Positions 4,203-42,673 of a DNA stretch of 43,793 bases are shown here, one piece after another. The notes under the pieces were generated by a model that worked only from the letters and a program-made list of their open reading frames with translations, had not been told where the DNA came from and searched no databases. The number at the start of each line of letters is the position of its first letter. Position 1 is the stretch's first letter. Source of the DNA: a virus; the IMG/VR virus record IMGVR_UViG_3300046005_001312, positions 1 through 43,793 of that record; one strand, written 5' to 3'. Position numbers and translations under genes: made by a program.

Positions 4203-5009
4203 ATGGCAACGAAACCGACGACGACCGAAGAAATCTCAGTTTTGGAAATCAGCGAGGGCATGGTCACGTTTTGCGTGATCGGCAATTCTCCGCTGATCTT
4301 CAACCGCATGGCCGAAAAGGCAAAGCGGGAATTGTTGATGCCAAAGGGACGCAAAAGCACCGCCGACCGCGCGGCCAGCCTCAAGCACAATCCGACGGAG
4401 GAATACCGCAACAGCGTGTATCGCAACGTCGGTGATGCAACGAAAACGCGGCTGAAACTGCCTGCCCCTGCGTTCAAGGGTGCGATGGCGACGGCGGCGT
4501 TGGATTTGCCGGGGACGAAGAAGTCTGAAATCGGCCGGCTCGTGTGGGTGCAAGGGGAATACGTCGATGTATACGGCATTCCCAAGTTGCTCATGTCGGT
4601 TGTGCGATCGGCGGATATCAACAAGACGCCGGACATTCGCACCCGCGCCATTGTCGCGGAATGGGCCTGCTCCGTCACGATCCGGTTTGTAAAGCCCAAG
4701 CTGCAAGCCAAGGCGATTGGGAACCTGATGGCAGCAGCTGGCATTACGGCGGGCGTTGGCGACTTCCGGCAGGAAAAAGGCAAGGGGTCGTTCGGGCAGT
4801 TTCGGCTTGTGGAAGCGACTGATCCCGACTTTCTACGGATTATTTCGGAAGGCGGGCGCGAGGCGCAAGACGCCGGCCTCGAAGCGTGCGAACCGTATGA
4901 TTGGGATACGGAAGAACTGTTTGACTGGTTTACGAAGGAGCTGGCCAAGCAGGACGACGACAAGGCGCCGGCGAATGATACGGCAACACGCAAGCGCAAA
5001 GCGGCGTGA
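4203..5009 (+). CDS. RAMP-like phage protein of unknown function
   Basis: This 268-residue protein belongs to a type I have seen in phages near recombination genes, without an assigned function. It starts at the ATG at 4203; two in-frame codons upstream lie inside the preceding gene. Notable parts are IGNSPLIFNRMAEKAKRELL near the N-terminus, an LPAPAFKGAMATAALD segment, and a glycine-rich GVGDFRQEKGKGSFGQFRLV stretch near residues 185-204. The last resembles in style the glycine loop of RAMP/Cas7-fold proteins, which suggests RNA or single-stranded nucleic-acid binding; this is inference from pattern only. The C-terminus is acidic, then basic and disordered. It lies directly before the G-rich pentamer stretch. 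Confidence 0.7.
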   Translation: MATKPTTTEEISVLEISEGMVTFCVIGNSPLIFNRMAEKAKRELLMPKGRKSTADRAASLKHNPTEEYRNSVYRNVGDATKTRLKLPAPAFKGAMATAALDLPGTKKSEIGRLVWVQGEYVDVYGIPKLLMSVVRSADINKTPDIRTRAIVAEWACSVTIRFVKPKLQAKAIGNLMAAAGITAGVGDFRQEKGKGSFGQFRLVEATDPDFLRIISEGGREAQDAGLEACEPYDWDTEELFDWFTKELAKQDDDKAPANDTATRKRKAA

Positions 5010-9062: not shown

Positions 9063-9430
9063 CCGACGCCGACCTATCCGCCCTAGAGGCTGCCGCGCGG
9101 GCGGCGACGCCGGGGCCTTGGTTCCGGCCGATCGCGAATGACACGGCGATCAGAAGCGATGATGTCGATATCGCGCAGACCGTGGGCGCCTACGAACTGG
9201 AATGGGAGCGGATGGAGGCAGACGCCGCCTACATCGCCAAAGCGAACCCAGACGCCACGCTGCGGCTGATCCAGCGCGTGCGGGAGGCGGAGGCAGATGC
9301 GGCGCGGTTCCGGTGGCTGGACGATACCGCTTCCTACTACGGATCGGGTGACGATCTACGCATTGAGTGGCGCGGGTCTGGATCGTCCATCCGAGCCGCC
9401 ATCGACGCACTCACGCCACCCCGCGATTAA
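9059..9430 (+). CDS. Ead/Ea22-like phage protein
   Basis: This 123-residue protein has the ATPGPW motif near residue 15, followed by an acidic segment and the helical ADAAYIAKANPDATLRLIQR region. This layout is common in Ead/Ea22-like and related accessory phage proteins, whose role is not established. The C-terminal end forms a compact RFRWLDDTASYYGSG segment. It ends the first part of the rightward operon; a new promoter follows within 30 bases. Confidence 0.7.
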   Translation: MTDADLSALEAAARAATPGPWFRPIANDTAIRSDDVDIAQTVGAYELEWERMEADAAYIAKANPDATLRLIQRVREAEADAARFRWLDDTASYYGSGDDLRIEWRGSGSSIRAAIDALTPPRD

Positions 9431-36523: not shown

Positions 36524-36921
36524 CAGTTCAGAGTGGCGCCCGTGTCCAGATCATCGCCCCAATCCGTCCCATGGCCCGCCGTATCCGCGTCGGCCTGAGC
36601 GATTTCCTTCTTGCCCGGAGGCGAGAATGACACGTCACGCCATCCGGCGCGGCACTTGAGCCAGAAGATGCAAGCCGTAACCGCATCCTTGCCCGTGCCC
36701 TCTGTCGCGCGCTTGAATAGCGATTGAGCGACTTTCGCGTTGGCTTCAGCGGCGGCGGTCTCAAGTTCCGACTGAAAGTGAAGCCGCAACGTCTTCGGGT
36801 CGCACCCGATCACCAGCCCAATGTCAGCCTGTGGCACGCCATAAGCCGCCATCGCCTTGACCTGCGAACGCTGCGCGTCAGTCGGCTGGAAGCTCGGTCT
36901 GCCTCGTTTGATTGCGCTCAT
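36523..36921 (-). CDS. terS: Terminase small subunit-like protein
   Basis: This 132-residue protein is directly upstream of the large terminase. The first 60 residues form an HTH: RGRPSFQPTDAQRSQVKAM, YGVPQADIGLVIGCDPKTLR. The next helix (ETAAAEANAKVAQSLFKRAT) would oligomerise, as in small terminases, and the acidic tail could contact the motor. I use the ATG at 36921, which overlaps the methyltransferase gene by 44 bases; the longer frame is a shadow. Confidence 0.8.
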   Translation of the reverse strand: MSAIKRGRPSFQPTDAQRSQVKAMAAYGVPQADIGLVIGCDPKTLRLHFQSELETAAAEANAKVAQSLFKRATEGTGKDAVTACIFWLKCRAGWRDVSFSPPGKKEIAQADADTAGHGTDWGDDLDTGATLN

Positions 36922-38179
36922 GTTCCACTTCGGTGAATGACCGACCGTCGCCTTCAAGCGTGGCAACCTGGCCGGTGAATGCCTGCCACCGCTTGACGGC
37001 GACATCGACGTAGGCGGGAGACAACTCAATGGCGTGACACGCGCGCCCGGTCATCTCAGCCGCAATAATGGTGGTGCCGGAGCCGCTGAACGGTTCGTAA
37101 ACCGCCTGGCCGGGGCTGCTGTTGTTCTCGATCGGACGCTTCATGCACTCGACGGGCTTCTGAGTGCCGTGGCCATGGCCACCGTCCTCACGCGCCTTTA
37201 TGTTCCAGACTGTGGTTTTGTCCCGGCCGCCAAACCAGTGGCCTGTTCCGCCCTTCTTGACAACATACCACGCGGGTTCGTGCTGCCAGTGATAATGGCC
37301 GCGGCCTAAAGTCATCCGGTCTTTCGCCCAGATAATCATCGCACGGTGCTCGAAGCCAGATGCCTCAAGTGAAGCAAGAACCGTAGTCGTGAACATTGAT
37401 GCGTGCCAGACATAGGCGACGTCGCCGGGGAACAGCGCCCAGGCTTCGGACCAGTCTGCTCTGTCGTCGTTCAAAACAATCCCGGACTTGGCCTTGTTAT
37501 TCGAAGTGCGCGTCGGGTCATACTCGACCCCATACGGCGGGTCCGTAACCATCAAGTGCGGCTTCACCCCATTCAAAGCCCGGCCCACCACCAGCGCATC
37601 GGTAGAGTCCCCGCAAACAATCCGGTGCCGACCCAGCACCCAGACATCCCCCGGAACCGTAACAGGCTCGGCCGGCGCGTCAGGCACGTCGTCCGGGTCC
37701 GTCAATCCCTCGGTGGTCTCGGCCAACAGCGCCGCCAATTCCAAGTCCGCGAAGCCGGTCAGCCCCAGGTCGAAGCCCTCGAACTTCAGATCCTCAAGCT
37801 CGACCCGCAACAGCGCATCATCCCAGCCCGCGTTCAGCGCCAACTTGTTGTCGGCCAGGACGTAAGCCTTCTTCTGAGCGTCGGTCCAACCCCGCGCCAC
37901 CATGACCGGGACCTCAGCGATACCGAGCGTCCGGGCTGCCATCACGCGACCGTGGCCGGCAATGATCCCGCCGGCTTCGTCGACCAGAACCGGCGTCGTC
38001 CAGCCCCATTCGCGAATGGAAGCGGCGATCTGCGCCACCTGGGCGTCGGAGTGGGTCCGAGCGTTGCGAGCGTATGGCACCAGGGCCGCCACAGGGCGCC
38101 TCTCGACGGCATCGGCTGGCCATGTAGCGGGGAATGGGTCGGGAGCCACTGTCGCGCGTTTGGTGCCGGCAGCGGCCAT
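36878..38179 (-). CDS. ParB-like/DNA methyltransferase fusion
   Basis: This 433-residue protein has an N-terminal ParB/sulfiredoxin-like domain (residues 28-105, with IIAGHGRVMAARTLG) and a C-terminal N6/N4 DNA methyltransferase: DPPYG at 213-217 and EPFSGSGTT at 362-370. Such fusions are common next to terminase genes in phages. The ParB part may direct the enzyme along DNA. It probably protects DNA before packaging; the target site is unknown. An AAAGGAC site precedes the ATG. Confidence 0.93.
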   Translation of the reverse strand: MAAAGTKRATVAPDPFPATWPADAVERRPVAALVPYARNARTHSDAQVAQIAASIREWGWTTPVLVDEAGGIIAGHGRVMAARTLGIAEVPVMVARGWTDAQKKAYVLADNKLALNAGWDDALLRVELEDLKFEGFDLGLTGFADLELAALLAETTEGLTDPDDVPDAPAEPVTVPGDVWVLGRHRIVCGDSTDALVVGRALNGVKPHLMVTDPPYGVEYDPTRTSNNKAKSGIVLNDDRADWSEAWALFPGDVAYVWHASMFTTTVLASLEASGFEHRAMIIWAKDRMTLGRGHYHWQHEPAWYVVKKGGTGHWFGGRDKTTVWNIKAREDGGHGHGTQKPVECMKRPIENNSSPGQAVYEPFSGSGTTIIAAEMTGRACHAIELSPAYVDVAVKRWQAFTGQVATLEGDGRSFTEVEHERNQTRQTELPAD

Positions 38180-39514: not shown

Positions 39515-40060
39515 TTATTTACGTTCAAGCCGCGTCCCGTCGTAATGGTCCACCAACCGCAGCATTGCCGCCTCGACCATCGCCGCAGTCCGGTCCCGTG
39601 GTAAACCGCGGTTGCTGGTGATGGCAGCCAAAGAGAGCCGCGACACCAGCAGGTCCGATGCGTAAGCGTGCAGCGTCAGGCCGAGCGCATCCCGTGCCGC
39701 ATGGTGCCGCGTCAGAGCCGCGGCTTTGCCCCAGGCTTTGACGTGCGGGCATGGCAGGTCGATTGCCCCTCGACCACCAGCCGAGGATGCCCCCAGCACG
39801 CCGACCTCATAGTCCCGCCGATAGCGTTCGCCAGCCATGACCAGTGCGTTCGTCCACCGCTCCGGCGTCTGGCGATGGAGCATGAGCAGCGGGTCGTATC
39901 GCCGCTCTCCCAGGATCAGCCGCGCCTCACGCCGCAACGGGTCCATGTCTTCGGGATCGGCCCACGCGGCTTTCATAACGCCAGGATGGTCGAGGACCAC
40001 CGCCGCTGCTGTCCGGGAGGATGGTGACGGGGTTGGCTTGGGTTGCTTACGGGGCTTCAT
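39515..40060 (-). CDS. Hypothetical regulator-like protein next to the origin
   Basis: This 181-residue protein has a disordered basic start (MKPRKQPKPTPSPSS) and two helical regions: GERYRRDYEVGVLGASSAGG and a C-terminal DALGLTLHAYASDLLVSRLS followed by RDRTAAMVEAAML. The style resembles DUF6456-type HTH proteins (from memory). It is just downstream of the iteron region and just upstream of the cassette-2 promoter, so an origin-binding or late regulator role is possible. The ATG has a GGAG site and overlaps a 13-codon leader frame. Confidence 0.55.
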   Translation of the reverse strand: MKPRKQPKPTPSPSSRTAAAVVLDHPGVMKAAWADPEDMDPLRREARLILGERRYDPLLMLHRQTPERWTNALVMAGERYRRDYEVGVLGASSAGGRGAIDLPCPHVKAWGKAAALTRHHAARDALGLTLHAYASDLLVSRLSLAAITSNRGLPRDRTAAMVEAAMLRLVDHYDGTRLERK

Positions 40061-40098: not shown

Positions 40099-40116
40099 TT
40101 CCTGTCCCCTCCTAAA

Positions 40117-40250
40117 TGTCACCATTGTCGCCTTTGTCACCTTTTTCTAACCCCTACGCATGTGAGATTTAGAACAGATATAGAACACATTGTGTTCATA
40201 CACATATGGGAACTGGCTGAAAAAAGGTGACAAACCCGACAAAGGTGACA
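40117..40250. other. Candidate replication origin with opposed 9-bp iterons
   Basis: TGTCACC-type units begin at 40117, 40126 (TGTCGCC) and 40135, exactly 9 bp apart. Their reverse, GGTGACA, begins at 40226 and 40244 with a degenerate CCCGACA at 40235, again 9 bp apart. Between the triplets is a less GC-rich stretch with two TAGAACA copies and the palindrome GAACACATTGTGTTC (40183-40197). It lies just after the helicase gene. Iterons, AT-richer centre and replication neighbours argue for an origin; an operator is the alternative. Confidence 0.6.
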
Positions 40251-40262
40251 TTCCGACCTCCG

Positions 40263-41852
40263 TCAACGCCGCAAAGCCCAGCGAGGGCGGCGCGTATCGT
40301 TACGGTCCACCGTCAGCTTGGCACCGTCTACCACGTTGTTATTGTTCTTTGTTAGCCACCTGCCCAACCGCGCCGGTGATATTGTGGTGCCCGACCGCTC
40401 TGACGCCGCCTCTAGGCATGCTTCCCGGAACATCGGGCAAACAAACCCATGCCCATCGGTTTCCTCAGCCCGAAGTATCATTTCTGGGACGGACAGCCTT
40501 GCAGCGATGCCGACCTCTTTCTCCCAGGCCCCAAAGAAGGCAGCGCGGGATGCTCGTGTGGGGTCCTCTGCCCGTGCCAAATCCATCGACTTCACCGGGT
40601 CCACGGCACCGAGCCACACCAGCGCGGAGCGGACCAAGTTAGACCACCGCTCGAAGGATGCCAGCGGCGGGAGTTGGTTTGGGTATCCGGCGCACACATA
40701 GGCCCGGCCGATCGTGAGGCACGCGGCGACATAGTGCCCACGGTCGGCCATCACGTCCGCCACCGGGTTGCCGGAGAATTCCCTCGCCTCGGGGTTTTCG
40801 AGGTTGGCATCGAGGCGGCAGATCATCGTTCGGCGCACCATGTCGGCGGGGGCACTCAAATTGTTGCCGTTGGCAAACACGGTGAAAGTGTTGGCGATGC
40901 GGATGTCGGTGGACGTGCCCAACGGCCGGATTTTGAGCAACGGGCGCTCCGTCACTTGGTTCAGGAAGTCCCCACCCATCATCTCCGACACATTGTCGAT
41001 GGCGATGATCTGCTGTCCGGAAAGAGCGGCGGCGATCAGTCGCTTTTCGGTCTCGTTCACGTCGGGAGACATGGCGATCACGGCGCATCGTTCGCCCGTA
41101 GCGATGGCCGATGCGGTGTCGAGTAGGTAGCTTTTGCCGGTGCCAGGCTGCGGCGCGGTGGCGGCATGCATGGGCACCGCCGGCAGTAGCGCGCCCCGTA
41201 GGACCACGGTTAGGATCATGGACAGCGCGACCGATCGGCTTGCATCGTCGGCAAACGGGAACTCGGCCAAGAGCGATTGCAGTGTATCCAGGGCGCGGGC
41301 GGCGTCGGCTTGCGTCGGCTTGGCGGGGATGGGAGGCATCTTCGGCGGTCCGATCAGGACCAGTCCGGTTGCCGGATCGTAGCCTTCTCGGTCAAGGATC
41401 GTGCCATCAGGCCGCATGGTTGGTGTGGAGATGACGCCCGCGATCGGGGGGAATGGCCACTCCCCGAACATGGCCGCGACCTGTTCAACGACCTCCTTCG
41501 GCGGGTCGATGCGGACGATCTCCCCGTTCTTGTTCATGCGCTCCCATTCCGCGACGGTGCCCATGGTCCGGCCGAGGATGGGGATCGTGACCGGGACGAT
41601 CCCCGGTATCCCGATCACGTTGCCGTCCGAGGTTTTGGCTTGGGCCGATGCCGTGCGGACAAGCATTCGGTCCCGCTGATAGAACGGCACGCCTGCGTGA
41701 TCCATGGCCGCTATTGCCTGATCGGCCGCAACGTGGCGCTGGCCGCTGATGACGCTGATGACGGGCCGGCGAACGTCCTCAGACACGGGTGCGGCGCGCG
41801 ACTTTTCTAGCGCCTCACGTGCGACCTGTTCCGGATCAAATGGCAGGCTCAT
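40263..41852 (-). CDS. Phage AAA+ replicative helicase-like protein
   Basis: This 529-residue protein has Walker A PGTGKS at residues 236-241 and Walker B-like IIAIDN at 282-287. An arginine-rich sensor-like region follows (VRRTMICRLDANLENPEARE). The type is often found in phages together with a primase-polymerase, as here. The N-terminal 200 residues are not recognised. It probably unwinds DNA at the nearby iteron region. The ATG overlaps the preceding gene by four bases. Confidence 0.8.
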   Translation of the reverse strand: MSLPFDPEQVAREALEKSRAAPVSEDVRRPVISVISGQRHVAADQAIAAMDHAGVPFYQRDRMLVRTASAQAKTSDGNVIGIPGIVPVTIPILGRTMGTVAEWERMNKNGEIVRIDPPKEVVEQVAAMFGEWPFPPIAGVISTPTMRPDGTILDREGYDPATGLVLIGPPKMPPIPAKPTQADAARALDTLQSLLAEFPFADDASRSVALSMILTVVLRGALLPAVPMHAATAPQPGTGKSYLLDTASAIATGERCAVIAMSPDVNETEKRLIAAALSGQQIIAIDNVSEMMGGDFLNQVTERPLLKIRPLGTSTDIRIANTFTVFANGNNLSAPADMVRRTMICRLDANLENPEAREFSGNPVADVMADRGHYVAACLTIGRAYVCAGYPNQLPPLASFERWSNLVRSALVWLGAVDPVKSMDLARAEDPTRASRAAFFGAWEKEVGIAARLSVPEMILRAEETDGHGFVCPMFREACLEAASERSGTTISPARLGRWLTKNNNNVVDGAKLTVDRNDTRRPRWALRR

Positions 41853-42673
41853 GTCCGTCGTGCCCTCAATCCGCTGTCGATGGTTGCCATGGCTTCGCGG
41901 ATCGGGATAGCCCGGACGCGAGCGGCGGCTAGTAGGCTCTCCCGGACCTCAGCCTCCGTCAATGTGCCATCCTCCATAAACCGCGCCATGCTCCATGTCT
42001 CTCGGTTCAACGTATCGTTGGCCTGGCCAGACGGCGCGGTTGCCACCCGCTCAATCGCATGGCGCAGCGCGCCCGTGGCGTATTTCCGCTTTCGGCCCTC
42101 GCCTACCAGGACCGGAGCGGGACGGGCTGGCGGCTCTGGCGGCGGTGCCATGAGCTCGAGCAGCCACGCGGGCGCGTCGGGAGGGGATACCTCCCACGGC
42201 GGCACAAGCCATCGGTAGGGCAAGCCCAGATCGACATGGGTTGACGGCGGGATGGTCTGTGACAGGCGCCCGCGCCTCGGGTCAATGCCTGGCGCCGGGT
42301 GCCCCGTCTTGCCGATTATGGGTTCGCCAGACCACCGAAAGAACACGGCCATGCCACCCGACCCGGATTGCATGATGGGCCGAGGCGGCAATCCACCATG
42401 TTCCGCGACAATCGCTTTGAACGCGCCGAGACCGTCTGGGTGATGCGGCGGAACATCCAGGTCAATGCCCCACAAGCCGGACGGGCCGAACACCACCCGC
42501 CAGTTGCAGCGCGGGAAGCGTTCGGACCATTCCGCAATCACGTCCAGATCGCAGGACGCGGCGGCCGAGGCACCACCGAAGCATCCGGCGCGGGACGTGG
42601 ACGATGCGGGGTAGACGTGCCACCCCAGCAGCGCCACACGCTCAATATCCTCGGGAATGGCCATGACGGTCAT
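41849..42673 (-). CDS. Bifunctional primase-polymerase (Prim-Pol) domain protein
   Basis: This 274-residue protein has the archaeo-eukaryotic primase pattern: a GWHVYPA start, catalytic IDLD at residues 70-73 (GLWGIDLDVPPHH), GSGGMAVFFRW as the middle motif, and a later PSTHVDLGLPYRW. The C-terminal 90 residues form a helical domain (LNRETWSMARFMEDG) common in these proteins. It probably primes replication at the iteron origin with the helicase, and may also extend DNA. No other polymerase is present, so host polymerase is likely needed. Confidence 0.87.
   Translation of the reverse strand: MTVMAIPEDIERVALLGWHVYPASSTSRAGCFGGASAAASCDLDVIAEWSERFPRCNWRVVFGPSGLWGIDLDVPPHHPDGLGAFKAIVAEHGGLPPRPIMQSGSGGMAVFFRWSGEPIIGKTGHPAPGIDPRRGRLSQTIPPSTHVDLGLPYRWLVPPWEVSPPDAPAWLLELMAPPPEPPARPAPVLVGEGRKRKYATGALRHAIERVATAPSGQANDTLNRETWSMARFMEDGTLTEAEVRESLLAAARVRAIPIREAMATIDSGLRARRT

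Follow-up and report, generated by a model that had tools for sequence, protein, structure and literature searches.

Immediately downstream of a helicase gene, the window (the whole 43,793-nucleotide stretch analyzed here, IMG/VR virus record IMGVR_UViG_3300046005_001312) carries two triplets of 9-bp iterons that face each other across an A+T-rich centre. This arrangement raises a direct question: Is the element an origin of replication and, if so, which protein reads it? Its parts are as follows, in window positions:

40117–40143, + strand: iteron triplet A, TGTCACCAT / TGTCGCCTT / TGTCACCTT, with units starting at 40117, 40126 and 40135 (9-bp step), oriented towards the centre
40144–40223, no strand: central A+T-rich spacer (62% A+T vs 37% genome-wide), the proposed melting region
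40170 and 40181: two copies of TAGAACA in the central spacer, 11 bp apart
40183–40197, no strand: 15-bp palindrome GAACACATTGTGTTC in the centre
40224–40250, − strand: iteron triplet B, helicase-proximal and opposed to A, TGTCACCTT (40250–40242) / TGTCGGGTT (40241–40233) / TGTCACCTT (40232–40224), 9-bp step

The preliminary description had reported two opposed triplets with an exact 9-bp step, 84 bp apart, with TAGAACA repeats and a palindrome between them, and every one of these parts was found; the distance is 84 bp when the units are taken as 7 bp long and 80 bp when they are taken as 9 bp long. We scored the array by all pairwise matches among its three left units and the reverse complements of its three right units, with the whole window, Markov-shuffled 120 times, as the null. 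The opposed 3+3 array has a six-unit score of 112, compared with a mean of 76.4 (sd 3.2) and a maximum of 89 for the shuffles (n = 120), and elsewhere in the real window the score reaches at most 81, so that the window has a single high-scoring place. The array is thus far beyond chance. The palindrome GAACACATTGTGTTC alone is marginal (shuffle P = 0.03) and is not common to all relatives; it may bind a regulator or form a hairpin. As a candidate conserved core it was rejected: the centres of the relatives have different best palindromes, most of which are no better than expected by chance. An Rfam search gave no match.

The element (40115–40252) sits in a 202-bp intergenic gap between the end of the helicase ORF (40263, − strand) and the start of the DUF6456 ORF (40060, − strand). 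It therefore lies immediately 3′ of the helicase stop, the location that characterizes PICI/SaPI origins. It had been placed between the helicase gene and a regulator-like gene; the first flank stands, while the second is a DUF6456 ORF. The neighbouring genes are:

39515–40060, − strand: DUF6456 ORF, downstream of the element (PF20057, E = 1.5e-8)
40263–41852, − strand: helicase/initiator gene, 529 aa, with a D5/SF3-type AAA+ core by fold (predicted model)
40263–40562, − strand: helicase C-terminal domain, residues 431–529, the proposed iteron-binding domain
41849–42673, − strand: Prim-Pol gene, 274 aa (PF09250, E = 3.9e-20), overlapping the helicase start by 4 bases

The record is a tailed phage, with genes for the terminase large subunit, for the portal and major head proteins and for tape measure and tail proteins; given this full structural gene set, the possibility that the record as a whole is a satellite of the PICI kind was rejected. 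A direct DNA similarity search against phages found nothing. At 36878–38179, adjoining the terminase genes, a ParB-N domain is fused to a DNA methyltransferase.

The helicase gave no significant match in Pfam or in a profile search of PDB sequences, and an hhalign comparison of its profile with pRN1 ORF904 was not significant, leaving no link between these two by sequence alone. It does match phrog_29234 and phrog_19930, annotated as DNA polymerase/primase in PHROG. Its AlphaFold model (mean pLDDT 91.7) matched, in Foldseek, the C-terminal region of NrS-1 polymerase (6lrb, 3.8e-8) and the SaPI5 primase-helicase (7ola, 2.2e-6), together with African swine fever PrimPol and poxvirus D5-type helicases. 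The predicted structure thus suggests a member of the D5/SF3 AAA+ helicases with the D5/Rep primase-helicase fold of a PICI/SaPI-type initiator, at low whole-chain TM-scores (0.36–0.41) that probably result from a different domain arrangement. The C-terminal domain is modelled (pLDDT 93.6) in the order helix-helix-helix-strand-strand, which we read as a winged-helix-like DNA-binding domain; a fold search with this domain in the PDB gave no significant match.

Is the layout kept where the helicase is kept? We gathered helicase relatives from viral and bacterial contigs and found that, in most of them, the same layout recurs where the helicase gene ends, beginning either within about 0–110 bp of the stop codon or a little before it, still in the gene. 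We varied the step from 6 to 14 bp, keeping the unit length equal to the step and taking the 99% null as the threshold (43 loci, 258 control segments). At step 9, 32 of the 43 loci exceed this threshold, against 24 of the 258 control segments; the count is 11/43 at step 10 and 1–8/43 at every other step. Four loci (L030, L031, L037 and L090) clearly prefer a 10-bp step. A clear 9-bp element is absent from 11 of the 43 loci, some of them with 10-bp steps, and the remaining loci may carry the element elsewhere or in another form. The centres are A+T-rich as well (mean A+T 0.55 across 27 loci, vs 0.40 for the loci). The preliminary description had looked to conservation of the iterons in related phages: the layout is kept, but the letters are not. 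The iterons differ by lineage, for example TTTCCTCCG (L003), TGCGGGTTT (L026), CTGCATAGG (L032), TGCAGGATT (L034), TAGGGGGTT (L047) and GGTGGTTGT (L098).

Read by eye, the sequence past the element varies between relatives, whereas the element keeps its place at the 3′ end of the helicase gene. This pattern bears on two other readings of the locus. An operator or terminator for the downstream DUF6456 gene or for the replication operon, rather than an origin, would suit a site between two same-strand genes, and there is one weak terminator-like match at the palindrome; against it stands the pattern just described, and no promoter-like pair overlaps the iterons; we regard this role as very improbable. 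A packaging, recombination or partition (parS-like) site is brought to mind by the ParB-N/methyltransferase and terminase genes 2–5 kb away. Here again the position of the element tracks the helicase gene, and close layouts occur in satellite and archaeal plasmid regions shown to act in replication; we find this reading scarcely credible.

How can a layout persist while its letters turn over? Closely related helicases provide a natural swap. The proteins of L002 and L003 have cores that are 95% identical, with C-terminal domains at 38% and iterons at 45%, while in L003 and L028 the cores are 94%, the C-terminal domains 85% and the iterons 89% identical: between L002 and L003/L028, C-terminal domain and iterons change together. 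In the 46 pairs whose cores share at least 70% identity, the similarity of the iterons correlates with that of the C-terminal domain at rho 0.38 and with that of the core at rho 0.10, the P values being only indicative as these pairs are not independent. When all divergent pairs are included, the similarity of the iterons no longer correlates with that of the C-terminal domains, probably because the iterons are saturated, and a global partial Mantel test is null; only close pairs are informative for this link. Because iteron similarity in close pairs tracks the C-terminal domain and not the core, these sequence comparisons suggest, short of proof, that it is the C-terminal domain which recognises the iterons.

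The preliminary description knew of no standard account of this symmetric layout in phages, but the layout is not unprecedented: it has counterparts in PICI/SaPI satellites, in P4 crr and in a tested E. coli PICI origin. In PICI/SaPI satellites, two iteron sets flank an A+T-rich region (Fillol-Salom 2018, PMC6092414); the origin of the PICI EcCICFT073 supports plasmid replication, and the authors stated that no other known bacterial replicon has this origin organisation (PMC6092414). In the EcCICFT073 origin sequence we found opposed CTGTCTACC units at a 9-bp step. EcCICFT073 and SaPIbov1 resemble the window in placing iteron sets around an A+T-rich region directly 3′ of the primase/helicase gene, and SaPI5 Rep and the window helicase have the helicase fold in common. 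The window differs in belonging to a tailed phage with its own virion genes, in its strict 3+3 array (the EcCICFT073 origin has more iteron sets) and in encoding helicase and Prim-Pol in separate genes. P4 crr, with type 1 repeats TGTTCACC, likewise adjoins the 3′ end of a primase-helicase gene, alpha; its annotated repeats at 4314/4323 (+ strand, 9-bp step) face those at 4366/4384 (− strand, 18 bp apart), with about 35 bp between the two sets, and the type 1 unit resembles the TGTCACC of the window. Unlike the window element, crr is a duplicated 120-bp element with two good units per side, P4 has a separate ori (9176–9413) in which type 1 repeats step by 10–11 bp, and its primase is of the Toprim kind. 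Classing the window as a P4 crr type was rejected: it holds a single element with TGTCACC-type units, at one high-scoring place.

Opposed 9-bp iterons 3′ of a primase-helicase gene also occur in Bordetella phage BPP-1/BIP-1 (TCGTTTGCC-type units in an intergenic gap, about 460 bp 3′ of the primase gene), and clear elements of this kind are present in Acinetobacter phage 4316 and Microcystis phage Mae-JY02 (score 114). These phages differ from the window in having other primase-helicase proteins and unrelated iterons, and no origin is annotated in the stretches seen. No such element was found in Armstrong, Lilbooboo and Asa16, where a D5-type helicase gene lies beside a DNA polymerase I gene, nor in JCL1032, Javan51, Vibrio 367.14, DSS3_MAL1, RcXuper and CcrColossus. 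In SCCmec, the C-terminal domain of the Cch2 helicase binds direct repeats just 3′ of its own gene (PMC7581432); unlike the window, these are three 5-nt iterons, and opposed triplets are not described.

The tested origin of the archaeal plasmid pRN1 introduces a different reading of the same architecture. This origin is required for replication and has been described as a 100-bp stem-loop 3′ of the prim-pol/SF3 gene, without iterons, Berkner and colleagues favouring the stem-loop (PMC4234260). Applied to the window, the recognised feature would be a hairpin or cruciform of the inverted arms, as proposed also for BIP-1, with the 9-bp repeats incidental. The window indeed has an extended inverted repeat 3′ of the helicase with no family-wide sequence conservation: the symmetry extends past the iterons, the 50-nt arms 40115–40164 and 40203–40252 being 78% complementary, single-stranded DNA of this region has a folding z-score of −7.7, and units in mirrored positions resemble each other slightly more than cross-arm units that are not mirrored (0.83 vs 0.76, P = 0.007). 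Yet a hairpin needs no 9-bp direct repeat, and step 9 is strongly preferred; pairing of the arms is imperfect in the middle units of the window element, and the opposed 9-bp iterons of BIP-1 stand apart from its described stem-loop. We therefore consider it unlikely that a hairpin is what is recognised. The pRN1 origin itself holds TTATGTCCA-TAGTGTCCA in each arm, which reads as two facing 9-bp units per arm, and the arms of the pRN2 origin hold GGACCGATA-GGACAGGAA, two facing units at a 9-bp step. Both plasmids resemble the window in having the origin 3′ of a prim-pol/SF3 helicase gene and a sequence that is not conserved across the family; they differ from it in their perfect arms with two units each, which are weaker evidence than a triplet.

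Because its position and architecture are conserved in relatives and match those of origins tested elsewhere, the element is very probably the origin of replication of this phage, at which opposed helicase assemblies open the A+T-rich centre. Through its C-terminal domain, the helicase from the gene just upstream would bind both 9-bp iteron triplets, so that two assemblies, presumably opposed rings, would face each other head to head across the centre. Their ATP-driven action would melt the centre, and each ring would take one strand and travel outward. The strands so exposed could then be primed by the adjacent Prim-Pol, which might also extend the DNA, and bidirectional forks would result.

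One expectation of the preliminary description, an inflection of GC skew at the element, was not borne out in the window and counts against this origin reading: the cumulative GC-skew minimum of the window is weak and lies instead at the contig end, 3.6–7 kb off (43787 raw, 3435 detrended). The minimum coincides with the element in one of five records, and we set GC skew aside as an uninformative origin marker. The one case is G002, the record of L025, where at about 18.6–18.7 kb the minimum lies 65 bp from the element.

Through this layout, phage origins appear to be linked with those of phage satellites and of an archaeal plasmid. What seems new is that the layout is widespread in tailed phages, although subscription journals may hold prior descriptions that we missed, that the 9-bp step is kept while the sequence turns over, and that the 'stem' of the tested pRN1 origin can be read as two 9-bp units per arm. 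A more general proposal follows the same lines: opposed arrays with a fixed 9-bp step would be a general origin grammar of Prim-Pol/D5-type replicons, from tailed phages through satellites to archaeal plasmids, with the letters turning over together with the C-terminal domain, and the pRN1 'stem-loop' would really be an iteron origin. We give this proposal an even chance. If it is true, a single rule (opposed 9-bp units 3′ of a D5-type helicase) could locate the origins in sequences of uncultured phages, and initiator C-terminal domains with their iterons would form a natural collection of matched protein-DNA pairs in which changes of recognition could be studied.

The genes and spacers of this family vary in further ways. 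In the window, Prim-Pol and helicase are encoded by two distinct genes that overlap, while in several of the relatives compared (L025, L026, L027 and L029) the helicase lies inside a single open frame of about 820–950 codons, which suggests fusion or fission. Four loci (L048, L049, L060 and L100) have, instead of a 3+3 element, long and irregular arrays made up of many units of the GCGAGGTTA type. Two short motifs recur in the central spacer of lineages with different iterons: GGCTGAAA, at 40215–40222 in the window, is found near the inner array edge in five lineages, and AAACTGTCAG, possibly a priming or regulator site, is found in four divergent lineages (L046, L092, L094 and L098).
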